This document shows, piece by piece, positions 2,578 to 57,688 of a stretch of 64,000 nucleotides of DNA. Every line of letters begins with the position of its first letter. Position 1 is the stretch's first letter. Source of the DNA: Leptolyngbya sp. SIOISBB (lineage in GTDB: Bacteria; Cyanobacteriota; Cyanobacteriia; Phormidesmidales; Phormidesmidaceae); NCBI GenBank assembly GCA_010671905.1, contig JAAHII010000001.1:7216026-7280025 (forward strand). The letters run 5' to 3'. The notes under the pieces are model-generated. The model saw nothing but the letters and a program-made list of their open reading frames with translations, did not search any database and was not told the origin of the DNA. The translations under genes and the position numbers were made by a program.

Positions 2578-5500
2578 AGCTCAATCTCCTTACGCCCCGC
2601 CGCCGCGACGGGGGGATTCAAGGTCATCTGCATGGCATCAATGTGAACAGCTAGATCAGCGATAGTGGGGCGTTCAAACATCACCCGCAGCGGAATATCT
2701 AGCTCAAACGCTTTTCTTAATCGCGTATTCACCCGTGTGGCGCTCAGGGAATTGCCCCCCAGCTCAAAAAAGTTATCGGCCACACTCACCGTCTCCAACC
2801 GCAGCACGGCCTGCCAGATATCGGCGATGCGCCCTTCCGTAGCCGTTTTCGGCGATCGCGCCGTAGCTCTTGCAGGGCGATCGGGTGCTGGTAGGGCTTT
2901 GCGGTTGACCTTGCCATTGGGCAATAGCGGTAGTGCCGCGAGGGTGACAAATTGACTCGGCACCATATAGGGGGGGGAGGTGGTCAGTGAGGTAGGTACG
3001 GAGTGGGGGAGTGGGGGCCTTTTGAGTTTTGAGTTCTGAATTCAAAATTGATAATTCAAAATTCAAAACGACATAAGCGATTAGCTGTGGCGCTTGTGGA
3101 CTGTCTTCTCGCAGCATGACAACTGCTTGCGACACGTCGGGGTGCTGAGTGAGAACAGCTTCAATTTCGCCGAGTTCAATGCGGAAGCCGCGCAGCTTCA
3201 CCTGATGATCAATGCGGCCTAGATATTCGAGGGTGCCGTCGGGGCGGTAGCAGGCGCGATCGCCGGTTTTATACAGTACCGACCCGGTAGGGGCGCAGGG
3301 CTCTGCGCCCAGGGCAAGATCTTGATGATCAGGTAAAGATACGGCATTGGGCGTACCGCCGTCCGCCCCTACCGTAAATGGATTCGGGATAAACCGTTCT
3401 GCCGTCAGATCGGGTCGATGCCAATAGCCACGGGCGACGCCGACGCCGCCAATGTAGAGTTCGCCAGGAATGCCGGGGGGCACGAGGCGCTGCTGGGAGT
3501 CGAGCAGGTAAATCTGGGTGTTGGCGATGGGCCGACCGATCGGGATGGTGGTGCCGGGAGCTAGGTTGGGTTGGCAGGCCCAGGCAGTGACGTCGATCGC
3601 GGCTTCGGTGGGGCCGTAGAGGTTGTGGAGTTCTACACTGGGCAGGGTCTGGAAGAATTGGGTTGGCAGGCTGGAGGGCAGGGCCTCGCCGCTACAAATG
3701 ACCTGCTTGAGGCTAGTACAGTCGGCCACGTTGGGAGCTTCTAAAAAGGCGGCTAGCATGGCAGGCACGAAGTGGAGCGTCGTGATGTGTTCCCGTTGGA
3801 TCAGCTCGACTAAATAGGCGCTGTCTTTGTGGCCTGCGGGACGGGCCAGTACCAGGCAGGCTCCCGTCATCAGGGGCCAAAAACATTTCCCAAGCGGAGA
3901 CATCGAAGCTGAGCGGCGTTTTTTGCAAGACGCGGTCAACGGCGGTCAGCGGGTAGGCGTCTTGCATCCAACAGAGACGGTTGACTAGGCCGCGATGGGT
4001 GTTGATGACGCCTTTGGGACGGCCAGTGGAGCCGGAGGTGTAGAGGAGGGAGATGGGTTGTTGGGGAAGGAGTGGAGTAGGGGAGTGGGGAAGTGGGGGG
4101 AGTAGGGGAGTGGGGGAGGAGTTCACTAAGGTTGATGCAATGAGGACTGGAGGTCAGAAGATCGGTGAGAGTCGCAGTGAGATCTTGAGTGGGGGAGTGG
4201 GTGATTATGACGGGGGGCGCGGCGTCTTGGAGCATCCAGGCGAGGCGATCGCGGGGATAGCTAGGGTCGAGGGGCAGGTAAGCACCCCCGGCTTTGAGAA
4301 TGCCAAACAGGGCCACGACGAGGTCGAGAGAGCGATCCACGCAAACGGCGACAGGCACTTCTGGGCCGACGCCGAGGCTTTGTAAATGGTGGGCGAGCTG
4401 CTCAGCTCTGGCGTTGAGATCGCAGTAGGTCAGGGTTTCGTCTTTAAAGCGAACGGCGATCGCCTCGGGGGTGCGATCAACCTGGGCTTCGATCAAGGCG
4501 GGGAGGGGGCAATCGCTAGGATAGTCGGTGGCGGTTTGGTTCCAGTGGTGAATTTGGGCCTGTTCTGTAGGGGTGAGCAGGGGTATGTTTCTGAGCCAAT
4601 TGTGGGTCGTCAGCCCCATCAGCAAGCTCTCCAGGTGGGTCAGCAGGCGATGAATGGCGTCTTGAGGGAAGCGATCGCTGCGATATTTGGCCGTCAGCGA
4701 CAGGTGTTCTCCCGTTGAGACCAGCAGGGTCAGCGGAAAGTGGGTCCATTCGATGAATCTCACGTCTGCTAGGGCCAGATCCGATTGTCTGGCGAGCAGG
4801 GCGGCATTGACGGGGTAGTTTTCCATCACCAGCAGGCAGTCGAAGAGCGCTTGTCCAGGGGGCAATTCGCTCCAGGTCTGGACATCCATCAGGGCACTGT
4901 ATTCGTAGGTGGAGGCACTGGCGCGATCGCGCTGCAGCTGCTGTAACCAAGGAATCACCTCAGCGGCTGCGGGTACTTGCACCCGCACCGGCAAGGTATT
5001 GATAAAGAGGCCCACCATGGTGGCGGCACCGGGTATGGCAGGTGGACGACCAGCACCGGTGGCTCCAAAGACGACATCGTCGCGATCGCAGTAGCGGCTC
5101 AGGAGCAAGCCTAAAGCCCCCTGAATGAGGGTGTTGAGGGTGAGCTGATGTCGTTGACCAAAGGCCCGCAGTTGAGCGGTTTGTTCGGCAGACAGCAGGC
5201 ACTGTTGTTCGGTGGGGGCAGCAGCTGGGGCGGCCGGGGGTGTACCCATGGGCAGGGGCGTGGGTTCGCTAAAGCCCTGGAGATAGCTTTGCCAAAAGGT
5301 CTGGGCAGCGGCCAGATCTTGGGCTTGCAGCCAGGTGAGGTAGTGGGCGTAGGGAGGGGGAGCGATGGGGGGATGGGGGGATGGGATGGAAGAGGAGAGC
5401 GATGGGGTGCTTTCGAGTGACCGAGTGATAGCGAAATATTGGCTAAAAACAGTTTTGAGTAGATTGGCGGCGGACCAGCCATCGAGGATGAGGTGGTGAT

Positions 5501-5928: not shown

Positions 5929-5934
5929 TAGTTA

Positions 5935-5940: not shown

Positions 5941-8900
5941 AAAGATCGGCCAAAAGATCGTCGAGTTCGTCCTGGCTGAGTGACATTTGTGGAAAATCGG
6001 ATGGCGTGTAGCCGACATCCTCATCGGCGGTGAGACAGTGCTCGATCAGCCGTCGCAGCGCCTCAATAAAGCCCTCGGCCAGAGGGGCGATCGTCACGCG
6101 GCGGTGAATGGCGGTGCTGTAGGTCCAATGCAGGTGTAGCTGTCCGCGGCTGACTAGACCATCAATTTCGAGCAGGGTGGGGCGCGCATCCTCGGGGCTG
6201 CGAGCAGCACCGGTCGGTTCTGAGGCCGGGGCGAAGCGCTCATCCGCCGCCCACACCTGATCGAGCTGTCCCAGATAGTTAAAGCGCACCTCTGCTGGGG
6301 CCAACGGCAGGGACTCCGGGTGCAAATAGCGCCCTATGCCATAGCCCAGGCCCCGATGCGGCACTGCTCGCAAGGTTTCTTTCACCTGCTTTAGCGCCAT
6401 GCCCAGGGTGGGCGCAGTCGTCAGGTCTAAATCGATGGGAAAGAGCGTCGTAAACCAGCCCACCGTACGAGTCAGATCGAGGTCGGTAGCCTCGACACCG
6501 GGGAGCGCTTCTCGCCCATGGCCTTCCAGTTCTAGCCGCAGTCGCCGCGTCCCCGTCCAAGATTCAAAGGCCAGCACCAGAGCCGTCAACAGCAAGTCGT
6601 TGATCTGCGCTGGATAAGCCCCTGGCACCTCCTGTAACAGGCGGCGCGTATCCGCCTCGCTGAGGCTAACCGTTACTCGGTCAGCGATCGCCAGCCGATT
6701 GTCGGCACTCGCAAAATCCCTGGGCAAGGGCACCATCGGGGTCGCCGCTAGGTTTTGCCAGTAGGCTCTCTCGGCTGCCAGCGCGGGGGGACGGGCATAG
6801 GTGTTGAGCTGCTCGGCCCACTGCTTAAAGGCCGTCGTCTTAGCTGGCAGCTGTGCCGTCTGGCCCTGCTCCAACTGCCCGTAAACGAGTCGTAAATCTG
6901 CCAGCAGAATCCGCCAGGATACCCCGTCAATTCCTAAATGGTGGCACACGAGCAATAGGCGGTGCTCTTCCTCAAAGCCGAAATAAGCTGCTTTTAGCAA
7001 TGGCCCTGTCGCCAGGTCAAAGCCAGTCTGTAACTCTTGGGCAGTGTCCGCGATCGCCCCTGGTAAATCTGCTGCTGGACCGCTGACCACCGTCAGTGGT
7101 ACTGGCCCCAGGGCCTGCCACTGCTGCTGCCAGCCTGCATCCGTCCGCACGAAGCTAGCTCGCAGGGCATCATGATGCTCTAACAGTCGCGCCAAGGCTT
7201 GCTCTAACAACAATGGACTCATGGGTTGACGCACCGTCAGCAATACGGCCTGATTCCAGTGGTGAGGATGCTGTAGCCCCTGCTCAAAAAAACCAGTGCT
7301 GGATCGGCGTCAACCCCCCAGTGCCCGTCACCAGCCCCTGCTCTGCGAGTATCTCAGTCCGACGCGATACCACCGTCGCCAGCCGAGCGATCGTCTGATG
7401 CTGAAACAAATCCTTTGGCGTCAGGTGCAGCCCCTGCTGATGGGCCTGAGCGATCGCCTGCAGCACTAAGATCGAGTCGCCCCCCAGCGCAAAGAAATTG
7501 TCCTGTATCCCCACCTGAGCCACTGGTAGCAGCTCGGTCCAAATGGTCGCCAGCGTCGCTTCTGTCGCCGTCATCGGCGCACTGTCCTGAGCTGCCGCCG
7601 CCAACACTGTTGGGATGGGCAACGCCTGCCGATCAAGCTTGCCATTCGGTAGACGCGGCAAGTCATCCAGCGGTATGAAGAAACTCGGGAGCATGTAGTC
7701 AGGGAGTTTGTCGGCGAGGAAGGAGCGGAGGGTGGAGGAGAGTGGATGGGGCGATAGGCTTCGGCGTGAGCGCTCAGCCGAACGGGAGATGGGGGGCGGG
7801 GGGGATGAGTTTTGAGTTTTGAGTTTTGAGTTTTGAAGGGCATCGAACTGAGAATTCAAAACTGAGAATTCAAAACTCTCTGCTTCTGCCTGTTCCCTGT
7901 TCCCTATTCCCTGTTCCCTATTCCCTGTCCCCTTCCGCACCACATACGCCACCAATCGCTGCGTCCCGTTTTCGTCTGTCCAGGGGTTGACGACGGCTTG
8001 GTCAATGTCAGGGTGGCTAAGCAGGGCAGTCTCGATTTCGCCCAGCTCGATGCGGAAGCCGCGAATTTTCACCTGATTGTCCAGGCGACCCAGGAATTCG
8101 ATTGTGCCGTCAGGACGGGTGCGGACGCGATCGCCAGTTTTGTACAAAATTTGCCCTGTAGGGGCGTCGGGCTCTGCGCCCAGGGCAAGATTCGGGTGAT
8201 GTGGCGAGGATTCTGCCTTGGGCGTACCACCGTACGCCCCTACCGTAAACGGATTTGGAATAAACCGTTCAGCGGTCAAATCCGGTCGATTCAGGTAGCC
8301 GCGCGCCACCCCTGCACCGCCCAGGTACAGCTCACCAGGCACGCCGATGGGCACGGGTTGCTGGTAGGCATCCAGAACGTGGGCTTGGGTATTGGCGATT
8401 GGACGACCGATGGGGGCGATCTCAGCCTGTGCATCCATGCGGGCATAGGTGGAGTAAGTGGTGTCTTCGGAAGGCCCGTAGAGGTTATAGACGTGCTGGA
8501 TATGGGGTAGCTGGTAGAGCTGCTGCACGAGTGTGGGCTGCAGGGGTTCGCCCGCTAGGTTGATGGTGGTGACGCTATTGGGGATGCCGTCGGTCCGCAG
8601 GAGGGCAGCGATCGCCGATGGGACGGTATTCACCAGCGTGACTTTGCTGGCTGCTGGTAACTCAGGGAGTTGGAGCACATTTTCTGCCAGGATGACGGTA
8701 CCGCCGCCGCTCAACGGCACAAAGAGTTCAAAAATGGAGAGATCGAAGCAGAGGGATGTACCGGCCAGGACGCCGCTGAGCTGTTCTGGGGAAAATACTG
8801 TCTGCGCCCAGCTACACAGGGCTACCGGGCTGTGATGCTCAATGGCCACCCCTTTGGGCTTGCCGGTGGAGCCGGAGGTGTAAATGACGTAGGCTAAATG

Positions 8901-11900
8901 GTTGGCGCTGCCCTGGCCAGTGGGATTGGTCATGGGGAATTCGGATAACTTGTCCCCTAGGACTTCTAGCGTGAGCTGGGGCAGAGACACGGGAGCCGCG
9001 ATCGGAGTGGTTTGGCTGGTTAGAAGGAGCGCGACCTGGGCGTCTTGGAGAATGAAGGCCAGGCGCTCAGCCGGATAGGTCGGATCAAGCGGTACGTAAG
9101 CGCCCCCCGCTTTGAGAACCGCCAGTAGCGCCACCACCAGATCAGCCGTGCGCTCCAGACAGACCCCAACGAGGGTTTCAGGGCCGATGTGGTGAGCCTG
9201 GAGGTAGTGAGCTAGCTGGTTCGCCCGCTGATTGAGTTCCTGGTAAGACAGGCGTTGGTCGGTGGCCATGAGAGCGATCGCCTGCGGGGTCTGCTCGACC
9301 TGTCGCTCAAATAGCTGGTGTAGACCGAGATCTGCTGGGTAATCTGCCTGAGTCTGATTCCACTGCCAAAGTTGCTGCTGCTCAGCCTGAGTCAACAGTG
9401 GTAGTGCCGCAATTCGGCAGGTGGGCTGCTGGGGGATGACCTTCAGGAGTTGACGCAGATAGCCTGCCAACCGATGGATGGTGTCTGCCGTGAACAGATC
9501 GGTGCGATATTCCAACGTGCCCTGCATTCCCCGCTCATCTAGCCGCATCGACAAGGTGAGGTCAACCTTCGCGGTACTACTGTTGATGGAGAGCGGCTGC
9601 CACTCCAGCGTGGTGTCAAGCGAGGTGCTGAGCGGCTGCCCAGTGGCCGCGATCGCCTCGCCGGCGTTCTGCAATACAAACATGACTTGAAACAGCGGCG
9701 CATGACTCCAACTGCGCGGCACTTCTAGCGCTTCCACCACCTGCTCAAAGGGGACAGCCTGGTGGGCGTAGGCATCCAGCGCCACCGCTCGTACCCGACC
9801 CAGTAACTCGTCAAACCGGGGATTTCCAGACATCGCCGTCCGCAGCACCAGGGTATTCACAAACAGACCGATTAAGCCTTCCAGTTCGGCCTGAGGACGG
9901 TTGGCGATCGGCGTGCCGATGACCAAGTCTTCCACCCCGCTGTAGCGATATAGCAGCACCTGAAAAGCGGTCAGCAGCGTCATAAATAGCGTGACACCCT
10001 GCTGCTGACTGAGGGTCTGCAGCGCTTGCGTTTGGGTGCGCGAGAGTCGGAAGGTATACGCCGCTCCGGCAAAGGACTGCACCGCCGGGCGGGGATAATC
10101 CGTCGATAGCTCTAGCAGTGGCGGTACGTCTTGTAACTGCCCTTGCCAGTAAGCCAGTGACGTTCGCTGGTGTTCAGCTTGCTGTTGCTGCCACGCCGCA
10201 TAGTCCACATACTGAAGCGGTAAGGGCGGAAGTGCCAAGGGTTGAGCTGAGCGCAAAGCATCGTAGCTCTGAGCCAGTTCTCGCACCAAAATTCCCATCG
10301 ACCAGCCATCAGCGATGATGTGATGCAGACTCAGCAAGATGACATGGTCAGCCGTAGCCAACCGCAACACTTTCATTCGCAATAAGGGAGCCTGCCCTAG
10401 ATCAAACGGAGTGCGAGCTTCCTGCTGAATCTGCTCTCGCACTTGCTCTCGTTGGCGAGCTTCATCTAGACCGCTCAAATCAATAATGGGGATCTCCATC
10501 TCAACGTCAGCCTGAATCGAGATCGCGGCTTGACCCTCTCGATCGATGAATCCGGTGCGCAGCACTTCATGGCGCTCAATTAGGTGCGCCAAACTCTGTT
10601 GCAGCTGGTCTATCGACAAATCGCCCTTGACTCGCACTGCGGTCGGAATAATGTAGAACGGGCTCTCTGGTTCCAACTGCGCCAACACCCACTGTCGCCG
10701 TTGCGCATCGGAGAGCGGCAGCGCACCAGAACGCTCAATCGGTACGATCGGTTCCAGAGATTGCGACGTATCACCCGCTTTGAGGGAGTCGATTTCGGCA
10801 GCGAGTTGAGACAGAGTGGGGTGTTCAAACAGCGATCGCACCGGCAGCTCGACCTCAAACACCTGCCGCACCTGGGCCGCCACACGTGTCGCTAACAGCG
10901 AATGCCCTCCCAGCTCAAAGAAGTTATCTTCACGACTGACCTCAGGCTGGTTCAGCACTGCTGCCCAGATATTGGCGAGTAGTTCCTCCGTCAGAGTGTG
11001 AGGAGCCGTCGAGCCGTGACTACTCTCCGGAGACTCTGGCACTGGCAGAGCCTTGCGATCGACTTTGCCATTGGGCTTTAGGGGCAGGGCATTGAGCACG
11101 ACGAATTGAGTCGGCACCATGTAGGCGGGGAGGTGCTGGGAAAGGAAGTGGGGGAGTGAATGAGGGTATGAGGGGGATGGGGGGATGGGGGGATGAGTTT
11201 TGAGTTTTGAGTTTTGAGGTTGGAATGTGTTCTTCGTGAGCGGCTCTTGGTTTTGCGTTCTTCACAAAGTAGGCCACCAACTGGGGATTGGCTGCGGCCT
11301 TCTCTCTAAGGACGACTACCGCTTGTTTCACGTCGGGATGCTGAGTGAGGACGGCTTCGATTTCGCCGAGTTCGATGCGGAAACCGCGCAGTTTGACCTG
11401 ATGGTCAAGACGACCCAGGTATTCCAGGGTGCCGTCTTCACGGGTGCGGACGCGATCACCAGTTCTATACAGTACCGACCCGGTAGGGGCGCAGGGCTCT
11501 GCGCCCAGGGCAAGCTCCAGGTGATGCGACCAGGATGCAGCATGGGGCGTACCGCCGTCCGCCCCAACGGCAGAAAACGGATTTGCCACAAACCGTTCTG
11601 TCGTTAAATCCTGACGCTGCCAATAGCCCGGACTGAGGCCCAAACCACCAATGTACAATTCGCCAGGGACACCGAGGGGCACCGGGCGCTGCTGGGCATC
11701 GAGCACGTGAAACTGGGTGTTGGCAATGGGTGGTCCGATGGGGACGAAGCCGTCCGCTAACGTCGCCGCTTCTAGCTTCCAGGGCCGCCGACCAAATAGT
11801 GGTTTCAGTGGGGCCATAGAGGTTCCAGAGTTCGGCTCCAGAGTTCAGCAGTCGCTGAGCCAGAGTAATCTCCAAAGCTTCGCCGCCGCAAAGCAGTTTC

Positions 11901-14168
11901 AAGTTGGCTTTACCAGACCAGCCGCTTTCGAGGAGCAGTCGCCAGGTGGCGGGGGTAGCCTGCATCAGGGTGACGTCATGATGCTCTAGTTGGGCTGCCA
12001 AACTTTGTGGATCTCGAACCGTATCCTGGCTAGCAACGACCAGAGTGCCACCTACGGTGAGCGGCAAGAACAGTTCCAAAGCAGCAATGTCAAAGGCGGG
12101 GGGTCGTGACGGCAAGCAGCGTATCCTGAGCCGTCATGCCAGGAGCCTGGGCCATGCTGTTGAGCAGATTCGTCAGACTCTGATGCTGGATAGGAACGCC
12201 TTTGGGGGTGCCGGTGCTGCCGCTGGTGTAGATGAGGTAGGCGGGGTCATTGGAAGTGGGGGAGTGGCTGGGTAGCTGGGTGACGGGGTAGCTGGGTTGG
12301 GTGGTGATATGAGCTTGGTACTGCTGTAAATCTAGAATCGGAATGGTCATCTTCTGGTCTATTCCCGCTGTCTCACCTTGCGTCGTAATTAGCAGCGATA
12401 CCTGGGCATCCTCCAGAACGAACCGCAGTCGCTCAACGGGATAGGTCGGGTCGAGGGGGACGTAGACGGCACCGGTCTTAAGGACGGCGAGTAGGGTGAC
12501 CACCAGTTCGGCAGAACGGTTCAGGCATAGGGCGACGCGACTACCCGGCTGGATACCTTGCTGCATTAAGTAACAAGCAAGCTGATTGGCCCGCTGGTCG
12601 AGTTGCTGATAACTAAGGACCGTGTCCTCAAAAATGAGGGCTGTGGCGTTAGGGTTGGTAGTGGCCTGGTCAGCAATCAATTCATGGACGCAGCGGTTTG
12701 GAATGAGTTGCTCAGTTTGATTCCAACTAATGAGTTGCTGTTGCTCGGTGGGGGTAAGCAGGGGCAGGGTACCGATCTCACTGTCGGGATTTTCCGCGAT
12801 CGCCCCCAACACCTTCTGAAAATGGCCAACCAGCCGCTGGATCGTGGTGGGCTTAAAGAGGTCGGTGTTGTACTCAAACACGCCGGTCAGACCGTCGGGG
12901 GTTTCGTACATGTCGAGGCTGAGGTCAAACCGAGCGGTCGTGGTCTCGGGTTCCAGAGCAGTGATCTGTAAGTCGGGCAGAGTAAAGCTCTGGGTAGGCG
13001 TGTTGTGCAAGATAAACATCACCTGGAAGAGCGCGTTATGGCTGAGGTGACGATCAACCTGGAGAGCATCGACGATCGCTTCGAAAGGCACATCCTGGTG
13101 GGAGTAGGCATCCAGGGCGGTTTCGCGTACCTGTTGCAGAAGCTGGGAGAAGGGTTGATCGCCAGATACCTGAGTGCGAAAGACGAGGTTGTTAACGAAG
13201 AGGCCGATCAGGTTTTGAGTTTCGCGGCGATCGCGATTCGTCACGGTTGAGCCGACCCAAATATCCGACTGGTCGGTGTAGCGATAAAGCAGCGTTTGGA
13301 ATGCCGCCAACAGCAGCATAAAGGGTGTGGCCTGATGCTGCTGAGCCAACGCTTTGAGACGGTCACTGAGCGCGGGAGAGAGGGCAAATGACTGCCGCGC
13401 GCCGCGAAAGGTCTGGACGGCGGGCCGAGCATAGTCGGTGGGCAACTCTAGTAGCGAGGGCGGATCGCTGAGCTGTCGCAACCAGTAGGCCAATTGCTGG
13501 TCTACCCGAGTCGGCTGATCCGCCTGGTCTTGAGCATTAAGCTGCTGCCGTTGCCAGGTGGCGTAGTCGGCGTATTGAATCGGCAGTTCCGGCAGGGGCG
13601 CGGGGTGCTGATGCACCTTTGCTGTATAGAGAGCAGCCATTTCTGTCATCAGTAGCCGCAGCGACCAGTAGTCCGCAATGATGTGGTGAATCGCGACCAC
13701 CAGTAGATGGCTCTGGCGGTCGCGCCGGAGTAGATGACACCGCAGTAGGGGCGCTTGAGACAAATCGAAGGGAGTCGCCAAGAGCCGCTGAATCTGGGTC
13801 TGAACGGCGGCTTCTGACTCTTGGCTCAGGTCTAGCACGGGCAGCGGCCAATCGATGTCGGGGGCCACCTGCTGATAGGGCTGACCATCGATCTGAATAA
13901 ACTGAGTGCGGAGGATATCGTGGCGCTGAGCGATCGCCTGCAAACTGTGATGCAGCGTCTCTATCTGCAACGGCCCCGTCAACCGCAGCACCGCTGGAAT
14001 GACGTAGACCGAGGTACCGGCCTGGAGCTGTTCAATAAACCACAGCCGCTGTTGCGCATAGGAGAGGGGCCACCGTTGGGAGGATTGCTGTCGGGCTTGC
14101 TTTTGCAAAAGCTGAGAGAGGAGCTGCCGCTTTTGTTCTGGCGTGAGATGGGCAATGGGTTGGCTCAT
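5939..14168 (-). CDS. NRPS bimodule C-A(Gly)-PCP-C-A(Ala)-PCP-E, four apparent frameshifts
   Basis: Reads as 2741 residues after removing four extra bases (12098-12103, 11779-11780, 11172-11176, 7286-7292). First C (14130-12800) receives the thiazole chain and has HHIIADYWS, Tyr where Gly is usual. A1 (12720-11110) carries Gly code D-I-L-Q-L-G-L-I-W(-K) and is almost identical in DNA to A1 of NRPS 6. PCP with FFELGGHSLL. Second C (10770-9460) with HHIIADGWS. A2 (9330-7650) carries Ala code D-L-F-N-N-A-L-T-Y(-K), like A1 of NRPS 9. PCP with NFFALGGDSI. E (7320-5990) with [13 protein letters not shown], so D-Ala is expected. The C-terminus TPSDF...LSQDELDDLL resembles a COM donor. The next gene's C domain is of the D-accepting type, which agrees. 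Confidence 0.9.
7286..7292 (-). other. Apparent +1 frameshift, start of the E domain in NRPS 10
   Basis: Seven A (plus strand) where six read PIQHWFFEQGLQHPHH. As written, TGA follows WFF. Confidence 0.9.
7720..7932 (-). repeat. Compound repeat cassette, A8-A10 loop of NRPS 10 (Ala)
   Basis: From right to left in reading order: TTCCCTG heptamers ([14 protein letters not shown]), a TTTTGAG/GAATTC snap-back, then a Ser/Pro stretch. It adds roughly 70 residues between AYVV and LRSFLADKL. Confidence 0.85.
8158..8243 (-). repeat. Palindromic insert in A6-A7 loop, copy in NRPS 10 (Ala)
   Basis: Ends GTAGGGGCG and CGCCCCTAC. The internal hairpin is weakened (GGGCGTCGGG instead of GGGCGCAGGG). It encodes FTVGAYGGTPKAES and LALGAEPDAPTG. 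Confidence 0.85.
11112..11225 (-). repeat. Repeat cassette, A8-A10 loop of NRPS 10 (Gly)
   Basis: TTTTGAG units plus GATGGGGG tracts, encoding [15 protein letters not shown]. Contains a +1 frameshift site. Confidence 0.8.
11172..11176 (-). other. Apparent +1 frameshift, A-PCP linker of NRPS 10
   Basis: Five G; four carry the frame through HFLSQHLPAYMVPTQF into the PCP. Confidence 0.82.
11483..11568 (-). repeat. Palindromic insert in A6-A7 loop, copy in NRPS 10 (Gly)
   Basis: The left end is intact; the right end has decayed to CGCCCCAAC. Shared with the NRPS 6 Gly copy. Confidence 0.82.
11779..11780 (-). other. Apparent +1 frameshift, Gly A domain of NRPS 10
   Basis: CTTCCAGGG here against CTTCAGGG in the near-identical copy at about 36.08 kb. 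The extra base breaks SAALKLEA. Confidence 0.9.
12098..12103 (-). other. Apparent +1 frameshift, Gly A domain of NRPS 10
   Basis: Six G here, five in the near-identical copy at 36400-36404. Five give VTTPAFDIAALE; six give VTTPRL and a stop. Confidence 0.92.
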
Positions 14169-17100
14169 GAGTCCTCCTCCGCTAGCATTTGACTCAACAG
14201 AGCATCGACGTCCTGTTCGGACAAATCATCCACCTGACTGAGCAACGCCTGGGGAGCGGTGGACTGAATGGGCTGAATTGTGTCTCCGGCTGCGGTGGAC
14301 GATGGCTCTGCCAGCAGCGATTCAACCACGGCGGCTTGCTCTGCTAAGGTTTGAGCGGTGAAAAACTGCCGAATCGAGAGGTCGATGGGAAAGGTCTGGT
14401 GCAGTTGCGAGAGGGCCTGCATCGCCGCTAAAGAATTGCCCCCCACCGCAAAGAAATTGGCGTGAAGGCTAACCGTCTCCAAATGGAGAACGTCTTGCCA
14501 AATGGTCGCGATCACCACTTCCACCTTGGTACTGGGGGCAACAAAAGGCAGTTCCGCCATCAAACTGCTGGGCAGCGGTAGCGCTTGGCGATCGACCTTG
14601 CCATTGACACTGAGGGGCAGCGCCTCTAACAGTTGATAGGTAGTCGGTACCATGTAGGTCGGAAGCTTTTGCGCCAAAAATTCTTGCAGGGCAGTGGTCA
14701 GCGAAGAGCCAGAGCGGGCCTGTTGGGGGGCTTGCCACTGCTGGCTCCAGCTTGGATCAATACCGCCGCCCGCCAAGCCGTGCAGAATTTCGTACTCGCT
14801 ATCCAGGCCGAGGGCCTGCTGCAGCGATTCCACACCAAATTTGCCCAAAGGACAAAGCCCCAAATCGCGGTCAGGAGCCGTTTCCATCAAGAGTTGGCTC
14901 ATGTAACCCGCTTCTAGCAGGCAGAAGTCACGGGCTTGATCCGCGTAGAGGGGCGCGATCGCCGCCAGGCATCCCACGAAGATCAGGGAAAACGCCGACT
15001 CTTCCACTAGGGCCTGATTGCTGCCGTAGAGCGTCGCGCTATCAAAAGTTTGAGCCTCCAATAACAGCAATCGATGGTTAGCCGGATGGTAATAGTAGAA
15101 GCCCGCTGCTAGTCCCTCAATCCGCCCCGGTTTGACGTGGACATAGGTCTGCACAGGATACAGGCTACCCGCCGACGCATAGCGATACTTGGGCAACGGT
15201 GACTCTGCTAGCTCAATGGATTTTAGGGGGCTGAGGAACTGACTGAAGGTTTTGAGAGCGATCGGCGCGGGCAGAAACTGTCGATAGCTCTGGCGTCGTA
15301 AATAAGGCTGCGGACTCTCTTCAGCTAGCGGCAAGTCGACGCTGATCGTCTCATCCGCGAAGCGCCGCAAACCCCGTCGTTCTTGTTTGAAGGCCAGCTT
15401 AGCCAGAGGATGGTGCAGCGCCAAATCCGCCGACGGTTCATCGGCTGATTGATCGCCAGCGCTCTCCGGCACGACATATGCCACCAACTGCTGCTGTGGC
15501 GCTGCGCCCACCGCTGTAACCACCGCTTCCCGAATGGCCGGATGCTGTGACAACGCCGCCTCAATCTCCCCCAGCTCAATGCGATAGCCGTTTAGCTTGA
15601 TCTGAAAATCTTCTCGTCCCAGAAATTCGATCGTGCCATCGGGACGATAGCGGCCTAGATCGCCGGTTTTGTAGAGAGTGGGATGGGGATGGGGGGATGG
15701 GGGATGGGGGCTCGGCGTGAGCGCTCGATTCGGCTGAGCTCATCGTCGAAGCCAGCGGAACAGTGGCTGGGTTTTGACCGGGTTCTGGGTTCTTCCTGTT
15801 CCCTATTCCCTGTCTCCTGTTCCCTGTTCCCTTCTCTAAAAGCGGATTCGGCACAAAGGCAGCGGCGGTTTTCTCCGGCTGTTGCCAATAGCCTTTCGCG
15901 AGTCCTGGGCCACCGATGTAGAGCTGTCCCGGCACCCAGACCGGGCAGGGTTGCTGGTTGTCGTTGAGGACGTACCATTGCTGGTTGGCGAGGGGCCGAC
16001 CGTAGGGGATGCTATTCCAAGTGGGATCGATGCTTTGAATTGGGTGAAAGATTGACCAGATAGAGGCTTCAGTCGCACCGCCGAGGCTGATTACTTGGGC
16101 TCGGGGGCAGTGGCGGCGAACCTGGTCAGGCAGAGTCAGGGGGAGCCAGTCGCCGCTGAGGAGTACTTGCCGTAAGGAGCTGGCCTGCTTTGAGTGCTGC
16201 TCCAGTTCAGTGATTAAGAGGGACATCAGGGCGGGCACGGAGTTCCAGAGGGTAATGCGGTGGGTGTGCAGTAACTCGACCCAATGGGCGGGGTCGCGAT
16301 CGCGCTCTGGCGCTGGCATCACGATGGTGGCTCCGGCCGCTAGGGTGCCAAAGATGTCATATACCGACAGGTCGAAGTTCAGGGCGGAGAGGGCGAGGAT
16401 GCGATCGCTTGGCCCCACTTCAAACCGCTGATTGATATCCAGGATTGTATTTACTGCCCCACGATGGTCAATCATCACGCCCTTGGGCAACCCCGTAGAG
16501 CCAGAGGTGTAGATGACGTAGGCCAGATTGGTGGACGCAGGAGAGGGTAGGGGAGTGGGCTTCGACGTGAGCTCAGCCGTAGGCGTAGCCTTCCCAAAGG
16601 GAATACGGGAGTGGGGGGTGATGGGAATTTGGGTTAAGGCGTCGGGCCACGCTAGGTCAGCGAGATGGGGTTGGGTGAGTAGTAGAGTGGCTTGGGTGGC
16701 TTCGATCAGGTGCCAGCGCCGTTCTTGAGGCAGAGTGGGGTCGATCGGGACGTAGGCGGCTCCGGCGGTGAGGATGGCTAGAGTCGCGACGACAGATTCC
16801 CAGCCTTTGGTCATGGCAACCGCCACGAGTTGGTTGGGCTGCACGCCTTGCTGTCGCAGGTGATAGGCCAACTGCAGGACAGACTGATACAATTCGCCAT
16901 AAGTGAGGGTGAGATCGCGAGCAATGACGGCTGGATGATCGGGTTGCTGCTGTGCTTGCTCGAAAAACAAAGTGTGTAGCAGCGGTTCTGCGCCTGAGAA
17001 CAGCGCTTTTTCTGTCTGATTCAGTGCCTCGACGTGGGCCGTGGAACCGAGTTGGGGAGGCGTTTCCCACGTAGCTGCTTCGTTAGCCAACCGCTCTAGA

Positions 17101-26821: not shown

Positions 26822-26828
26822 GACCGTT

Positions 26829-26833: not shown

Positions 26834-29800
26834 ATACATGCTGTCTGCCTCCCGCTGTCTGCTGGGGTTGGCGATGGCGCTGCTGACGGCGCTGCTGTAG
26901 CCGCTGCTTACCTGCCGCTAATTCCGGAGCGCGATCGCTGACCGGCCCCTCCGACGAACGCGATCGCAAATGCGCCGCCAACGTATTCACCGTGGGATAG
27001 CGAAACAGGTCTACCAAGGGAACCTCAACTGCCAACTGCTGCTGTAACTGACCGTGAACCCGCACCATCAACAGTGAATGTCCACCCAAATCGAAGAAGT
27101 TGTCGTGTAGCCCCACCTGCTCCCGGCCAAGTACCGATTGCCAGATGGCCGCGATCGACTTTTCGACCTGGGTTCGTGGCAAAGCCAGCGATTCGGGCCG
27201 CAGTGAACTTCCCGGTGTGGGCAGGGCGTTGCGATCGACTTTGCCATTGGGGGTTAGGGGCAGGGCATCGAGCCCGACAAACTGGCTAGGCACCATGTAG
27301 GCAGGCAGGTGCTGGGAAAGGAAGTAGGGGAGTGAATGCGGTGATGAGGGGATGGGGGGATGAGGGGATGAGTTTTGAGTTTTGAGTTTTGAATTCAAAA
27401 TTGATAATTCAGAACTCAAAACTACGTAAGCGACCAGTTGAGTCTCACCAGCGTTGTCCTCTCGCAGCACGACAATCGCTTGCGACACATCGGGATGCCG
27501 AGTGAGAACAGCTTCGATTTCACCTAGCTCGATGCGGAAGCCGCGCAGCTTCACCTGATGGTCGAGGCGACCCAGGTATTCCAGGGTGCCGTCTTCGCGG
27601 GTGCGGACGCGATCGCCAGTTTTGTACAAAATTTGCCCCGTAGGGGCGCAGGGCTCTGCGCCCAGGGCAAGCTCCAGGTGATGCGACCAGGATGCAGCAT
27701 GGGGCGTACCGCCGTCCGCCCCGACGGCAGAAAACGGATTTGCCACAAACCGTTCCGCTGTTAAATCCTGACGCTGCCAATAGCCCGGACTGAGCCCCAG
27801 GCCACCAATGTACAGTTCGCCAGGGACACCGAGGGGCACCGGGCACTGCTGGGCGTCAAGAACATGGAACTGGGTGTTGGCAATAGGTTGGCCGATGGGG
27901 ACGATACCGTCTGCCAGGATGGCGGCATCAAGCTTTAGAGCCGCCGACCAAATGGTGGTTTCAGTGGGGCCATAGAGGTTCCAGAGTTCAGCGCCGCATT
28001 CCAACAGTTGTTTGGCTAATGCGACATCCAGAGCCTCACCGCCGCAGAGTAGTTTTAGGTTGGGTTTGCCCTGCCAGCCGCTTTCGACCAGTAGTCGCCA
28101 AGTAGCAGGGGTGGCCTGCATCAGGGTGACGTCATGATGCTCCAGCTGCGTGGCTAATTGCTGCGGGTCGCGCACAACTTCCTGGCTGGCAATGACCAGC
28201 GTGCCGCCGACAGTGAGAGGCAAAAAGAGTTCCAACGCGGCGATGTCAAAGGCAGGAGTCGTGACGGCGAGCAGGGTATCCTGGGCCGTCATGCCAGGAG
28301 CCTGGGCCATGCTGGTGAGCAGGTTAGTGAGGCTCTGGTGCTGAATGGGGACGCCTTTGGGGGTGCCAGTGGAGCCGCTGGTGTAGATCAGGTAGGCGAG
28401 GTCATCGGAGGTCGGAGAGTGGGAGAGTGGGGGAGTGGGGGAGTGGGGGAGTGGGGGAGTGATGTGAGCCTGATTTTGCCGTACATCCAGAACCGGAACT
28501 GCCATCTTCTGGGCCATTCCCGCTGTCTCACCCGGTGCTGTAATTAGCAGCGATACTTTGGCGTCGTTGAGGATGAACCGCAGTCGCTCGATGGGATAGG
28601 TGGGGTCGAGGGGAATGTAGGTAGCCCCGGCTTTGAGGATAGCCAGCAGGGTAACCACCAGTTCGGCAGAGCGTTCCAGGCACAGGGCGATGCGATCGCC
28701 TCGCTGAACACCTTGCTGCACCAAGTGATGGGCGAGCTGATTGGCCCGCTGGTCGAGTTCCTGGTAGCTGAGAACCGTGTCTTCAAAAAGGAGGGCGGTG
28801 GCGGTGGGGGTAACGTTAGCCTGGTCGGTAATCAACTCATGGACGCAACGGTTTGGAAGCGCCTGCTTAGTTTGATTCCAACGGATAAGTTGCTGCTGTT
28901 CTTGTGTCGTGAGCAGTGGGATCTGGCTGAGGGGGGCTTCGGGAGTGGCCATAATGCCCGTTAGCACGGTTTCCAGATGCCCCAGCAAGCGTTCGATCGC
29001 AGCAACGGTAAAGCGATCGCAGTCATACTGCACCTTGAGTTCTAAGGTCTGGTCGGCGATCGCAAACAGCGCGAGGGGATAGTTGGTCTGCTCGGCAGTG
29101 GAGATGTCGTCAATGGCGAGGTCATGAACGCCTCGCTTTAAGGCCGGTTCAACCGGATAGTTTTCAAACACCACGACGCTTTCAAATAGCGGCAAGCTAC
29201 GAGGAATATCGCTGCTACCGTGAATTTGAACGAGGGGGGTGTATTCGTAAGGCTGCTGGTCGAGCTGCTGGTCTTGGAGCTGCTGGAGCCAGGCATGAAT
29301 AGGTTGCTCAGGGGGTGAGGCTGACCCGCAGAGGTAGGGTGTTGATGAACAGGCCGATCATCGTCTCAGTGCCCGGCAGAGTGGGGGGGCGTCCGGCACA
29401 GGTACTGCCAAAGAGGACTTCGGCTTCGCCGCTGTAGCGCCCTAGCACCAATGCCCAGGCTCCCTGCACCAGGGTATTGAGCGTGAGGCGATGGGTTTGA
29501 GCGTGCGATCGCAGCGCATCCGTCAGTTCAGACGATAGGCAACGGTGCTGCACAGCGTATTGAGCGGGACTAGCAGCTGCCCGCTGACGAGGTCGGTCAA
29601 TGCCCAGAGGCGTTGGGGCGCTGAGCCCCTGAAGGCAGTGCTGCCAAAATTGCTTGGCGGCGGCCATGTCCTGTTGTTGCAGCCAGGCAATGTAATTTCG
29701 GTAGGGGCGTGGCGTTCCCAATGCTGGCGTTTGGCCGCGCTCCAGCGCTTGATAGCTGACCAGCAATTCCTGCAGCAGTAGAGGAACCGACCAGCCATCC

Positions 29801-30246: not shown

Positions 30247-33200
30247 TAGTTGCCCCCTCCTTGAAATGTCACGCCGCCCAATACTGCTTCCAGCGTGGCC
30301 TGATCGAGCTCTACTAGGCTGAAATCTGCGGGGCTGTAATCGGGCGTGATCGCTGACTGGCTGCCCTCAATTAACTGCTGCAACGCCTGCATGTATTGAT
30401 GTGCCAGGGTTTCCAGCGTGGCTCGGTGGTGATGGTGGCGACTATAGGTCCAGGCCATCTGGAGCTGCCCCGCCCGAATCGAACCGTTGATATCGATCAG
30501 GTGCGATCGCCGCTGCTGCCCATCACGGGTGGCCACCGGCGTCTCCAATAAACGAAATCCTGTAGCCTCAGCTAGCAACCCATCAAACTGACCGAGATAG
30601 TTAAAGCTGATCTGGGGTGACCGGGCCAGCTCTGTTCGATCCGCTCCGTAGCACAGCAGGCCATAGCTCAAGCCCTCGTGGGGCAACCGTCGAAGTTGGG
30701 CCTTGATGGCCTGAAGTTGCTCACCAGGAGTATCTTCGGTGAGCTGTAGCGCGATTGGATGCAGACAGGTGAACCAGCCCATCGTACGGCTTAGATTGAG
30801 CTGATGCCCCAACTCTTCAGGATGTCTACCATGGTTTTCTAGGGTGAGTAGATGGGACGTGTGCCCCGTCCAGTCGGTCAATACTTGCATCAAGGCTGTT
30901 AGCAACACATCAGTGATTTCAGCCCGATAAGTCAACGGCGCCGTTTGCAGCAGCACCTGGGTAGACTGCCGCGATAGGGATACGGTCACTGTGTCTGCCG
31001 CTGCGACGGTATTATCCCCAGCGTTGTGATCCAGCGGTAACGGCGTTGCAGTCGGCAGGGCTTGCCAATAGGGCAGCGTTGCTTCTGCCTGCTGGGTCGC
31101 CAATTGTAGCCCGATGGCCCACTGTTGAAACGATTGAGTTTTGGCAGGAAGTGGGGCATTGAGACCCTGGGATCCCTGGCGATAGGCCGCCAGCAAATCT
31201 TCTAGCAAAATCCGCCAAGAGAGACCATCCACCACCAGATGATGCAGCACAATCAGCAGGCGACTGGGACGCTCAGCGCCCAGATCAAACCCGCCTACTC
31301 GCATCAGGGGGCCGTTTGTGAGATGGAGGCTAGCCTGTAGCACCTGTGCCTGCGTCGCCATTGCCCGCGCTTGAGCGCCCTCCGCCAGGGAGGACAGGTC
31401 ATACCAGGTAACCGGCTCAACCGCTGATGCCTCGGTATACCACTGCTGCCAGCCTGCCGCCATGCGCTCAAACCGCAACCGTAGGGCATCGTGATAACTG
31501 GTTATCTGCTGAAGCGCTTGATCTAAGCAATCGCGATCGCTCCCCAACGGCAGTTCCAGATAAACCGCCTGATTAAAGTAATGGGGATTCTCAAAATTGT
31601 GCTCAAAGAACCACTGCTGAATCGGTGTTAACGGCACCGCTCCGGTCGCCGCCATTGGTGCTGCCGAGATCGCTGCTGTTGTTTCAGCCACCGTGGCCAA
31701 CTCCGCAATGGTTTGATGCTGAAAAATCTGGCGGGGCGACAGCGATACGCCCGCCTGCGCCGCCCGACTCACCATCTGTAGCGCCAGAATCGAGTCACCC
31801 CCCAGTTCGAAGAAGTTATCCTGCACGCCCACAGTCTCTAATCGCAGCACCGCCGCCCAAATTTCCGCTAGCGTTTGCTCCATTGGTGTCTGAGGCCATT
31901 CGCCAGCCGTTTCGCTTTCCCAGGTTGGGGCAGGCAAAGACTGGCGATCGACCTTGCCATTGCTTGTGAGCGGCAGCGATGCTAGCTCGACAAAGACCGC
32001 CGGGAGCATGTAGGCGGGGAGTTGATCGGCGAGGAATTGGCGGAGGGTGGAGGAGAGTGGATGGGCTTCGGCGTGAGTGCTTAGCCGAACGGGGGATGAG
32101 TTTTGAGTTTTGAGTTTTGAGTTTTGAAGGGTATCGAACTGAGAATTCAAAACTGAGAATTCAAAACTCTCTGCTTCTGTCTGTTCCCTGTTCCCTGTTC
32201 CCTGTTCCCTATTCCCTTCTGTCTTCTGCACCACATACGCCACCAACTGCTGACGGCCAGTGTCGTCCTGCCAAGGATTGACGATCGCTTGCTCAACATC
32301 AGGATGGCTCAGCAACGCGGCTTCGATTTCACCTAGCTCAATCCGGAAGCCGCGAATTTTCACCTGATTGTCTAGGCGGCCCAGAAATTCGATCACGCCG
32401 TCGGGGCGGGTGCGGACGCGATCGCCAGTTCTGTACAAGATTTTCCCTGTAGGGGCGTAGGGCTCTGCGCCCAGGGCAAGATTCGGGCGATGTGGCGAGG
32501 ATTCTGCCTTGGGCGTACCACCGTACGCCCCTACCGTAAACGGATTTGGCACGAACCGCTCAGCGGTCAGATCGGGTCGGTTCAAATACCCTCGCGCCAG
32601 GCCATCGCCGCCCAGGTACAACTCACCGGGGATGCCGACGGGGACGGGCTGCAGGTTGTCATCGAGAACGTAGACCTGGGTATTGGCGATGGGGCGACCA
32701 ATAGGGGGAGAGCCTGCTGAAGCGGGGCTGTTAAGACTATCGGCAGTGATGGTGTGACAGCAGCTGAAGGTAGTGTTTTCCGTCGGGCCATAGCCGTTGA
32801 TCAAACGGGTGTGTGGCAACTGAGACAGTGCTTTGCGGACGTGCGCACCCGAGAGGACATCACCCCCGGCCAACAGTTGGCGCACAGGTTTTAGGGCCTC
32901 AATTTGCTCGTCTACCATCAGGTGAAATAATCCGGCGGTCAGCCAGAGGGTCGTGACCTGGTGCTGGGCGATCGCGTTCGCCAAATCCCCTAAAGTCGGG
33001 ATGGGCGTCGGCAGCAGCACTAGCTGACCACCGTTCAGCAAGGCTCCCCAAATCTCAAAGGTGGAGGCATCGAAGGATAGGGACGCCGCCTGGAGAAAGA
33101 CTTCGTGGGGGCCAAACTCAACATAATCAGTGTCTGTGACCAATCGCACCACGCCGCGATGGGGCGTACACACGCCCTTGGGCTGCCCCGTAGACCCGGA

Positions 33201-36200
33201 GGTATAGAGCACGTAGGCCAGGGTTTCTGCCGCGGTTGAGGTCGGTAGATTAGCGGTGCTTTGCTGGGCAATGGTCACTGCCTCAGTGTTCAGGGCCAGG
33301 AGCTGGCAGGCGGCAGACTCCAGCGGCAGGGTGATTGCTTGAGGCGTAATCACCAGGCTCAGTCCGGCATCCTCAATCATGAACTGGAGTCGCTCAGGCG
33401 GATAGTTGGGGTCGAGGGGCACGTAGGCACCGCCCGCTTTGAGAATCGCCAGCATCGCGACCATCGTTGCCGGACAGCGCTCAGCCCAGAGGCCAATCAG
33501 GGTATCGGGGGCAATCGCGGGCGATGCTCCGGAGGGGACAGCGAGGTGAGATCGCAAGTACCAGGCTAACTGATTAGCGCTTTCATTCAGGGCTTGATAG
33601 GTCAAGGACTGATCCCTAAAAATGAGCGCTGTGGCCGCTGGTGTCTTCTCCACCTGCTGCTCAAAAAGTTCGTGGATGCACAAGTGGCGCGGATAATCCG
33701 TCTGGGTCTGATGCCACTGCCAGAACTGACTGCGTTCAGCTGCTGACAGCAGCGGCAGCTCCGCGATCCGACTGCTGGGCTGCTCACAGATCGCGGCCAG
33801 CAAGGTGCAAAAGTGCCCTGCCATCCGCTGCATGGTGTCGGCCTCAAACAGGTCGGTGCGATATTCCAGCACGCCTTTTAATCCGGCGTGAGTGGGCCGC
33901 ATCGATAAGGTAAGGTCAAACTTGGCTGTCCCGCTTTCCAGAACGAGGGGCTCCCATTCCAGTCCCTCCATGGCCAGCGTGGGTAGTGGCGCATTTTGCA
34001 AGACAAACATGACTTGAAATAGGGGGGCATGGCTCCAACTGCGGGGCACTGCCAGCGCTTCCACTACCTGCTCAAAGGGGACAGACTGGTGAGCGTAGGC
34101 ATCCAGAGCCACCGCTCGCACCCGTCTCAGCAACTCCTCAAAGCGGGGATCGCCAGACAAATCGGTGCGCAACACCAGCGTGTTCACAAACATCCCAATC
34201 AAGCCTTCCAATTCAGCCTGGGGTCGGTTGGCGATGGGCGTGCCGATGACCAGATCCGTATAGCCGCTGTAGCGCTGCAAGAGCACCTGGAAAGCGGCCA
34301 GCAACGTCATAAACAGCGTCACCCCCTGCTGCTGACTGAGCTGTTCTAGCGCCTGGGTTTGCTCGATAGAAAGCTGAAACTCTGCGGTGGCTCCGGCCAA
34401 AGACTGCACTGCAGGGCGCGGCTGATCCGTCGGCAGTTCCAGCAAGGGGGGCGCACCCTGGAGCTGTTGTTGCCAGTACTCCAGTTGAGTGGGGGGCAAG
34501 GGCTGCTGCTGCCACGCCGCATAATCCACATACTGCAGCGGTAGCGGGGGCAGTTCAACCGCTCGGCCTGAGCGTAAGGCATCGTAAATTTGTGTCAGCT
34601 CCTGCACGAGAATCCCCATCGACCAGCCATCCGCAATGATGTGATGCAGGCACAGCACCACCACCTGGTCGAGCGCGGCAAGCCTTAGTACCCGGATCCG
34701 CAACAATGGCCCTTGACTCAAATCAAACGGCGTCCGCGCTTCCCGCTGCAGCTGTTCGCGAATTTGGGCCTGCTGCTGGGCCTGATCAAGCCCACTCAAG
34801 TCAATTGTGGAAATCGCGATCGCTGCCTCCGCCTGAATCGTGATTGCGGCTTGCCCCTCAACCTCTTTGAAGGCGGTTCGCAGCACTTCATGGCGCTCAA
34901 GCATCTGCGCCAAACTCTGTTGCAGCCGGTCGATTGACAAGTCTCCTTGGACTCGCACTGCGGTCGGAATGATGTAGAACGGGCTCTCCGGTTCCAATTG
35001 CGCCAACACCCACTGTCGCTGTTGGGCATCGGAGAGCGGGAGCATCCCGGCCCGCTCAATTGGCTGAATGGGCGCTAGGGTTGCAGGGCTGTCGCCTGCT
35101 TTCAATGTGTCGATTTCGGCAGCGAGTTGAGACAGAGTGGGGGATTCAAACAGCGATCGCACCGGTAACTCGACAGCAAAGGCCTGCCGTACCTGGGCCA
35201 CCACCCGCGTCGCCAGCAGGGAATGACCGCCTAGCTCGAAAAAGTTGTTATCGCGGCCAATACTGTTTTGCCCTAAAACGGCTGTCCAAATATTAGTGAG
35301 CAATTCTTCTGTGAGGGTGCGAGGAACCGTCGATGCCTGTGCGGTCTCGGTTTGTTCTAGCGCTGGCAGAGCGCTGCGATCGACTTTGCCATTGGGCGTT
35401 AGGGGTAGGGCATCGAGTACGACAAACTGGCTAGGCACCATGTAGGCCGGCAGATGCTGGGCGAGGAGGTGGGGGAGTGAATGCGGTGATGAGGGGATGG
35501 GGGGATGAGGGGGATGAGTTTTGAGTTTTGAGTTCTGAATTCAAAATTGATAATTCAGAACTCAAAACTACGTAAGCGACCAGTTGAGTCTCACCAGCGT
35601 TGTCCTCTCGCAGCACGACAATCGCTTGCGACACATCGGGGTGCTGAGTGAGGACGGCTTCGATTTCGCCGAGTTCGATACGGAAGCCGCGCAGCTTCAC
35701 CTGATGGTCGAGACGACCCAGGTATTCCAGGGTGCCGTCTTCACGGGTGCGGACGCGATCGCCAGTTCCATACAGTACCGACCCGGTAGGGGCGCAGGGC
35801 TCTGCGCCCAGGGCAAGCTCCAGGTGATGCGACCAGGATGCAGCATGGGGCGTACCGCCGTCCGCCCCAACGGCAGAAAACGGATTTGCCACAAACCGTT
35901 CTGTCGTTAAATCCTGACGCTGCCAATAGCCCGGACTGAGGCCCAAACCACCAATGTACAATTCGCCAGGGACACCGAGGGGCACCGGGCGCTGCTGGGC
36001 ATCGAGCACGTGAAACTGGGTGTTGGCAATGGGTGGTCCGATGGGGACGAAGCCGTCCGCTAACGTCGCCGCTTCTAGCTTCAGGGCCGCCGACCAAATA
36101 GTGGTTTCAGTGGGGCCATAGAGGTTCCAGAGTTCGGCTCCAGAGTTCAGCAGTCGCTGAGCCAGAGTAATCTCCAAAGCTTCGCCGCCGCAAAGCAGTT

Positions 36201-57680: not shown

Positions 57681-57688
57681 AGGATTGC

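Follow-up and report, generated by a model that had tools for sequence, protein, structure and literature searches.

Repeat elements read in frame at the A6-A7 loop of nonribosomal peptide synthetase adenylation domains, and their likely exchange between modules

The DNA studied here is a 64,000-nucleotide stretch (the window; contig C1, positions 7216026-7280025, of the 8.3-Mb genome G000), in which a nonribosomal peptide synthetase/polyketide synthase (NRPS/PKS) cluster on the minus strand serves as the host locus of a palindromic repeat. In seven adenylation (A) domains of this cluster, the loop between motifs A6 (GELY.GG) and A7 (LYKTGD or a variant) holds one 86-bp element, always in a single orientation and in frame with the coding (minus) strand. 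Each element looks like a REPIN, that is, two inverted, GTAG-tagged hairpins of the repetitive extragenic palindrome (REP) type, and in orthologs the same loop can hold unrelated repeats. We consider it probable that a permissive loop takes in repeats in frame and that recombination passes them between modules. The seven window elements, with the A domains that carry them, are as follows.

3287-3372, minus strand: REPIN in the A6-A7 loop of a Ser-like A domain (3k); the loop of the ortholog in genome G003 is a heptad repeat.
8158-8243, minus strand: REPIN in the A6-A7 loop of an Ala-like A domain (8k); a REPIN is also present in the G003 ortholog (99%).
11483-11568, minus strand: REPIN in the A6-A7 loop of a Gly-like A domain (11k); right end mutated; the G003 ortholog has heptads instead.
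19120-19205, minus strand: REPIN in the A6-A7 loop of an Ala-like A domain (19k); left end mutated.
27640-27725, minus strand: REPIN in the A6-A7 loop of a Gly-like A domain (28k); right end mutated.
32449-32534, minus strand: REPIN in the A6-A7 loop of a Val-like A domain (32k); identity to 8k is 96% in the loop and 53% in the A core.
35786-35871, minus strand: REPIN in the A6-A7 loop of a Gly-like A domain (36k); right end mutated.

A preliminary description of this DNA had reported seven in-frame elements at this site; all are present at 86 bp each, the first beginning at 3287, one base to the right of the 3286 given there. None contains a stop codon in the coding frame, in which the element encodes ~29 residues, and the A6, A7, and A8 motifs share one frame around each of the seven; a typical loop reads NPF-T-VGAYGGTPKAESSPHHPNLALGAEPDAPTG-QI-LYKTGD. 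The inverted ends also described, GTAGGGGCG and CGCCCCTAC, are both perfect in only three copies (3287, 8158, and 32449), and each of the other four has one mutated end. The next A domain to the left of the window carries an eighth copy (start at window position -226) that is 80-85% identical to the others, and identity among all eight ranges from 80 to 100%. A BLAST search of the own genome with one copy returned the seven loops at E values of 8e-39 to 3e-17 and the eighth copy only at 7.6; nothing else in this genome fell below E 0.6, and the match at 0.6 was the reverse strand of one of the loops. The seven-copy pattern is not chance. Pocket motifs, interpreted with a motif-to-substrate key that we assume to be correct, are Ala-like in 8k and 19k and Gly-like in 11k, 28k, and 36k, with partial motifs that are Ser-like in 3k and Val-like in 32k; the set of substrates first proposed agrees with these motifs, although its order along the coordinates differs. 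Overlooked at that stage were the only other A domains with an A6-A7 loop inside the window, 16k and 41k, which carry a different repeat at the same site.

On the coding strand, the element consists of GTAG and a hairpin (GGGCGTAC..GTACGCCC) with an 8-bp stem after the GTAG, a 38-nt spacer, and an inverted second hairpin ending in CGCCCCTAC, some of these ends being mutated. As in GTAG-REPs, a short imperfect palindrome carries GTAG at its outer end, and the two inverted REPs can fold as two hairpins or as one long one. When folded as single-stranded DNA, all seven window copies had one or the other arrangement among their minimum-energy structures, with z from -3.05 to -3.86. The single-REP pattern matched the own genome 21 times, 11 times in the eight loops and 10 times at six places elsewhere (0 and 1 for the reversed control). 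The REPIN pattern matched 14 of 115 genomes, our own included, and its reversed form matched none; 12 loci could be assigned a position, 10 of them between open reading frames (ORFs) of at least 100 aa, with L051, L054, and L059 left out because a cut at a contig end had made their match coordinates wrong. The interiors of these matches elsewhere are unlike the element studied here. Two loci with the same ends, L002 and L003, were rejected as REPINs, as each forms one long inverted repeat and failed the two-REP pattern.

Genes of the REP-associated tyrosine transposase (RAYT) family NF047646 scored over the cut-off in all nine genomes searched, and G000 has 12 matches to the family, one of them over the cut-off. 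The one further REPIN-pattern match in the own genome, L001, is intergenic and directly adjoins a disrupted ORF that resembles a RAYT gene (NF047646, E 4e-6, under the cut-off). Together with the REP-dimer architecture, the RAYT genes and the mostly intergenic loci lend support, at the level of the REPIN family, to the earlier proposal of a mobile intergenic repeat. For the 86-bp sequence itself the proposal fared worse: with up to seven candidates scored per genome (all 15 in our own), neither our genome nor any of 114 relatives yielded a full-length copy outside A domains. Among the candidates scored, full-length matches were confined to NRPS A domains, and the sole other one lies in a G003 A domain (99%); partial matches elsewhere span 19-41 nt, the longest being 41 nt, and one of the partial matches, in an intergenic region of another genus (L025), has the inner AGGGCAAGAT. 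The basis of the REPIN label is structure and family rather than a donor copy. As a separate observation, a leucyl-tRNA synthetase ORF of the same-genus genome G001 (L033:1001-3022) contains a GTAG-REP palindrome within its frame.

A phmmer alignment of the 8k domain with linear gramicidin synthetase (6mfy) covered residues 4-370, 398-472, and 540-579, and its gaps correspond to the REPIN loop and to a heptad-filled A8-A9 linker. An AlphaFold2 model of the same domain (52 sequences) had a mean predicted local distance difference test (pLDDT) score of 83.9, with 370 of 581 residues scoring at least 90, and the score fell below 50 only at 373-397 (the A6-A7 loop) and 477-534 (the A8-A9 linker). 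We take these segments as probably disordered. The loop presumably lies at the surface, and its insert may be functionally neutral.

Loop contents are replaced over species-level time. A survey of the genus yielded 61 A-domain matches in four of six genomes, 60 of which were read and their loops classified by hand. The A6-to-A7 span is normally 60-69 nt and is expanded in 44 of the 60 domains, to 90-240 nt where measured. Expanded loops account for 16 of 22 in G000 (8 REPIN, 6 heptad, and 2 unclassified), 18 of 18 in G003 (2 REPIN and 16 heptad), 9 of 19 in G004 (heptad), and the single loop of G002. Contig C148 of G003, a genome of the same genus, carries the orthologous cluster, whose ORFs there are long and intact. 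In five G000/G003 ortholog pairs, identity in the 45-nt windows next to the loop is 80-98%. At 8k both members have a REPIN (99%), and at 16k both have heptads (80%); in the other three pairs (3k, 0k, and 11k; 21, 36, and 34% identity) G000 has a REPIN and G003 has heptads. Four further counterparts, assigned on similarity alone and located on contig C52, have different repeats at 32k and 36k (42 and 25%) and the same kind at 28k and 41k (76 and 72%). In a third species, G004, the apparent 0k ortholog has yet another heptad array.

Long loops at this site are also in excess across the phylum. We drew 60 regions from 54 genomes, using the best matches listed (97 of 386 genomes had a match), a draw that favours A domains resembling the query at A7-A8; a group of 33 loci (cyanoA) chosen by similarity to an insert-bearing query was excluded from rates. 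Doubtful metagenome bins (L132 and L143) and domains with motifs missed by the regular expressions were dropped, and L233 and L248 gave no loop. GCGATCGC sites in the own-genome DNA, and a loop in the same-class genomes G192 and G437 that is near-identical to that of a named Microcystis aeruginosa (L135), indicate that our genome and the G-numbered phylum genomes are probably cyanobacterial. A6-A7 loops of at least 31 aa were found in 21 of 136 cyanobacterial domains vs 2 of 102 in 45 non-cyanobacterial loci (Fisher p 3e-4). Counted per genome, the figures were 12 of 52 with readable loops vs 2 of 42 loci (p 0.018). Inserts of at least 10 aa relative to a hidden Markov model numbered 20 at A6-A7 in 191 cyanobacterial domains vs 2 in 141 others (p 7e-4), and all other sites together showed no excess (24 vs 15, p 0.6). 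In the genus set of 83 domains, 40 such inserts fell at A6-A7 and 28 at A8-A9.

The inserts are of many kinds, among them DPPLTPLDKGG from CCCCCCTAACCCCCCTTGATAAGGGGGG, SPPSPLLTKERGVRQDG, and GSRGAGEQGSRGAEEQ from GGGGAGCAG arrays, and the four loop repeats that we counted are dispersed in their genomes, usually with tens to hundreds of matches (exact counts, overlapping within arrays; reversed-pattern controls 0). CCCCCCTTGATAAGGGGGG occurs 131 times in G321, 166 in G194, and 61 in G437. GGGGAGCAGGGGAGCAGGGGA occurs 170, 62, and 22 times in the genomes of L128, L115, and L147 and 697 times in G462, with none in four others. In the genome of L113, CCCTCTCCTTNNTAAGGAGAGGG has 86 forward and 88 reverse matches, many at the same site. 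The A6-A7 loops of L281 and L257 encode the same peptide in different families (G340 and G437), in which the palindrome has 4 and 61 copies, respectively; two of the four G340 copies lie on the NRPS stretches fetched, and the G340 loop may have arrived with a transferred A domain. In two non-cyanobacterial loci, L187 and L170, palindrome-like peptides (SPLAPLHKGGD and SPPFQGGTGG) occur in the A2-A3 linker, and a different loop may be subject to the same process in other phyla.

How did one element come to lie in so many domains of one cluster? Insertion before module duplication and sub-domain exchange that copies the loop had both been suggested. The Gly group (36k, 11k, and 28k), with cores 81-96% and loops 93-100% identical, did arise by duplication. 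Any other two REPIN-bearing cores in the G000 cluster are only 48-63% identical as DNA, whereas their elements are 80-98% identical, and loop identity in the 11 pairs computed outside the Gly group is 76-96%. With cores mostly ~50% identical and elements 80-100% identical, module duplication fails as the sole route, and sequence comparison makes exchange of the loop between modules likely. Additional comparisons point the same way. The proportions of synonymous and nonsynonymous differences (pS and pN) are 0.24 and 0.13 in the loop vs 0.51 and 0.15 in the flanks (45 non-independent pairs of 10 REPIN loops), loop pS exceeding flank pS in three pairs, those of the domain b_C52_8672 with the Gly group; the loops look younger and less constrained than their flanks. 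By identity, the clearest case is the 8k/32k pair, in which loop (96%) and A-sub are common to both, most of the core differs (53%), and similarity rises ~135 nt upstream of the loop. In the separate trees proposed earlier, the core of b_C52_8672 clusters with the Gly domains at 100/100, its loop joins the Ser domain at 85/91 (unstarred), and that loop grouping is rejected both by the core (p 9e-5) and by the downstream part (p 0.004). Loop-core incongruence is supported but not proved.

These observations would fit the following course. The element would be a REPIN, a non-autonomous pair of GTAG-tagged REP hairpins of the sort that RAYT transposases presumably mobilize. A single in-frame insertion probably brought it into one A domain of the cluster, at the flexible A6-A7 loop; RAYT-mediated transposition or, for repeats in general, slippage may have been the means of entry. 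The 25-30 extra disordered residues would be harmless there, so that the insert was presumably tolerated rather than beneficial. It would then have spread to domains of different specificity by two routes, replacement of the A-core with loop and A-sub staying put, and exchange of the loop itself between modules via the conserved A6 and A7 flanks, perhaps through gene conversion. The A6-A7 loop (and, in this genus, the A8-A9 linker) would be a permissive landing place for the small dispersed repeats of cyanobacterial genomes, where REPINs, heptad arrays, and palindromes like miniature inverted-repeat transposable elements keep appearing in frame and are swapped over species-level time, the neighbouring sequence being under stronger purifying selection than the loop.

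Several findings weigh against this account. With one other REPIN-pattern match, the own genome is not REPIN-rich, and, as noted above, the candidates scored gave no full-length copy of the 86-bp sequence outside A domains. The presence of RAYT genes lacks specificity: 6 of 14 control genomes also match the family, one of them over the cut-off. We found no empty ortholog and no target-site duplication, and direct flanking repeats were not searched for. Across the phylum, several long loops (L228 and L271) show no evident repeat, inserts are modestly palindromic (fold z < -2 in 7 of 37 vs 5 of 111 control windows), and the repeats counted were picked because loops showed them, G340 having only four copies of its palindrome. 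A loop pN/pS of 0.54 is relaxed, yet not 1. The loop tree is weak (90 columns, grouping unstarred) and does not reject the core grouping of b_C52_8672 (p 0.156), and the core tree does not reject a clade of 8k, 32k, and their ortholog (approximately unbiased test, p 0.206), the clearest case by identity. Finally, the heptad GGGAAYAGGGAAYAGGGAA is clustered: it has 69 exact, partly overlapping matches in G000 (42 outside the cluster) and 58 in G003, and 24 of the 69, in eight arrays, lie in the window, 0.8% of the genome. Heptad density of this kind goes beyond passive tolerance of intergenic repeats and leaves room for a selected role.

Such a role is the substance of a first alternative, in which the repeats are not passengers but a domesticated recombination system of cyanobacterial megasynthases: as short identical joints between unrelated A domains at A6-A7 and A8-A9, they would be selected for raising A-core/A-sub exchange and thereby diversifying the peptide. 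The 8k/32k pair speaks for this, as do window heptad matches ~45-fold over the genome rate (though in only eight arrays) and A8-A9 linkers of 8k, 0k, and 32k that are near-identical over ~90 nt in otherwise dissimilar domains. There is, however, one clear core difference only, and the tree test is not decisive; flanks stay intact on both sides of the replaced ortholog loops, so the loop alone moved; and A-core exchange is described from several bacterial phyla (PMC8097286), whereas long loops are rare outside cyanobacteria in our samples. We regard selection of the repeats as recombination handles, and likewise their domestication as a system, as unlikely. Separate transposition of the same REPIN into eight A domains at one target is very unlikely. 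Eight domains are hit at the same site, the genome has RAYTs, and other repeat types reached the site too, but all copies have a common orientation, frame, and register to A7, sets of domains share copy sequence groups, and the own-genome search found no source copy elsewhere at E below 0.6. Also highly improbable is a function in mRNA or DNA (translation pausing, mRNA processing, or an insertion sequence (IS) target) with the peptide as by-product. The fold is stable in all seven window copies, 2 of 16 stem pairs are changed on both sides, and an IS element inserts in REP-like palindromes of Planktothrix mcy genes (PMC4766695), but covariation hardly exceeds that of shuffles (41 of 500 reach it), some copies have broken stem pairs, and tandem heptads stand at the site in three of five orthologs. 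Vertical descent of all eight domains from one REPIN-bearing module by whole-module duplication, which fits the Gly group and the unrejected 8k + 32k clade, is hardly credible given the divergence of the other cores, flank pS at twice loop pS, and other repeats in three of five G003 orthologs. A permissive loop with exchange between modules stays our preferred reading.

Besides the REPINs, the window holds heptad-type repeats in the A6-A7 loop of two A domains and in the A8-A9 linker of eight.

15674-15836, minus strand: A6-A7 loop filled with heptad repeats (16k); out of frame here, in frame in the G003 ortholog.
40635-40836, minus strand: A6-A7 loop with repeats of the GGCAGAA / AAAACTC / CATCCCC type (41k); out of frame in this assembly.
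7806-7933, minus strand: A8-A9 linker filled with heptad repeats (8k); the peptide includes LKTQNSS.
32097-32217, minus strand: A8-A9 linker, heptad repeats (32k).
27343-27392, minus strand: A8-A9 linker, heptad/octad repeats (28k).
11160-11218, minus strand: A8-A9 linker, heptad/octad repeats (11k).
35488-35538, minus strand: A8-A9 linker, heptad/octad repeats (36k).
40336-40407, minus strand: A8-A9 linker, heptad repeats (41k).
18872-18901, minus strand: A8-A9 linker, heptad repeats (19k).
3039-3068, minus strand: A8-A9 linker, heptad repeats (3k).

Heptads occur in the A8-A9 linker of nine of the ten cluster A domains of G000; the exception is 16k, where a nitroreductase-like domain comes next. 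Their tandem heptanucleotide arrays are dispersed in the genome, and we take them to resemble the short tandemly repeated repetitive (STRR) family of cyanobacteria. In the heptad register, the T that would make TAG occurs in 0 of 34 cases vs 41 of 76 in other registers, a comparison that is partly circular (ORFs are defined as stop-free) and is not used as proof. For the out-of-frame loops of 16k and 41k, programmed frameshifting at the poly-C tract of each was considered and rejected: the G003 ortholog of 16k is in frame and several other breaks in the window lie at homopolymers, so that sequencing error is the likelier explanation. The megasynthase frame is also broken near 3940, 7260, 11800-12100, 15570, 29200, and 40600, several of these at homopolymer runs, and the longer intact ORFs of the orthologous G003 cluster suggest that the breaks are assembly indel errors. 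Heptads extend beyond A domains: ~17 tandem TTCCCTG copies lie at 55702-55819 within a large ORF (49653-57758), and outside the cluster a histidine kinase ORF (L312, G000:C1:169888) has heptad repeats in an open frame.

Parts of this picture are already known: REPs in frame within genes (PMC3733652), Rickettsia palindromic elements (RPEs; PMC10969869), and REP-like repeats in Planktothrix mcy (PMC4766695). REPs can lie wholly inside ORFs, where over half are dimers or grouped repeats encoding 20-30 aa; within genes of one category they sit at different sites, the Xanthomonas recB repeats being at about the same site (PMC3733652). Our elements share with GTAG-REPs and REPINs the GTAG tag, imperfect palindrome, inverted dimer, and RAYT genes in the genome (PMC3733652; PMC3116915) but differ in that eight domains of a single cluster carry one element at the same homologous position, where orthologs can have unrelated repeats. 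RPEs (~150 bp) are likewise palindromes in frame within ordinary genes, and all seven window copies are, like them, wholly in an ORF and read through; RPEs, however, are scattered over unrelated genes (PMC10969869), whereas here one loop of one domain family receives several repeat classes in many genomes, and the candidates scored gave no spread over many unrelated genes. The Planktothrix regions are also GC-rich palindromes within cyanobacterial NRPS/PKS genes (mcyA and mcyD), but they measure 43-45 bp and are treated as targets of ISPlr1, and the excerpt mentions neither an A6-A7 position nor loop exchange (PMC4766695). Interrupted A domains similarly have in-frame insertions, typically at a8-a9 and sometimes at a2-a3, but these are catalytic (PMC11355689), whereas the inserts here are repeat-encoded peptides modelled with very low confidence, mainly at A6-A7; no folded auxiliary catalytic domain is evident, pLDDT being < 50 and the 8k ORF showing only condensation, A, and carrier domains. 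Finally, A-core exchange in NRPS evolution swaps sub-domains while keeping A-sub (PMC8097286), which 8k/32k fits by identity; unlike there, the loop alone also seems to be exchanged here.

Searches of the open-access literature turned up no earlier description of A6-A7 as a hot spot, nor of orthologs that differ by loop replacement. The loops offer a natural map of A-domain tolerance to foreign peptide, relevant to NRPS engineering, with A6-A7 used repeatedly, and they are loop-scale markers for recombination between NRPS modules. As several classes of dispersed repeat become coding at one homologous site, orthologs only ~10% apart make it possible to study how a repeat turns into protein.

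Three further domains deserve mention. In another cluster of G000 (L094, C2:190829-190987), an apparent methyltransferase, so called from VLDLGCGTG, which we presume to be a methyltransferase motif, lies between A8 and A9 and makes an interrupted A domain; its A6-A7 loop is moderately expanded. In the window, a nitroreductase-family domain at 14165-15553 lies between part of the C-terminal part of an A domain and the carrier domain, an arrangement like that of oxidase-containing NRPS modules, and the cluster includes a luciferase-like monooxygenase of the MupA/Atu3671 family (TIGR04020) at 43579-44658.

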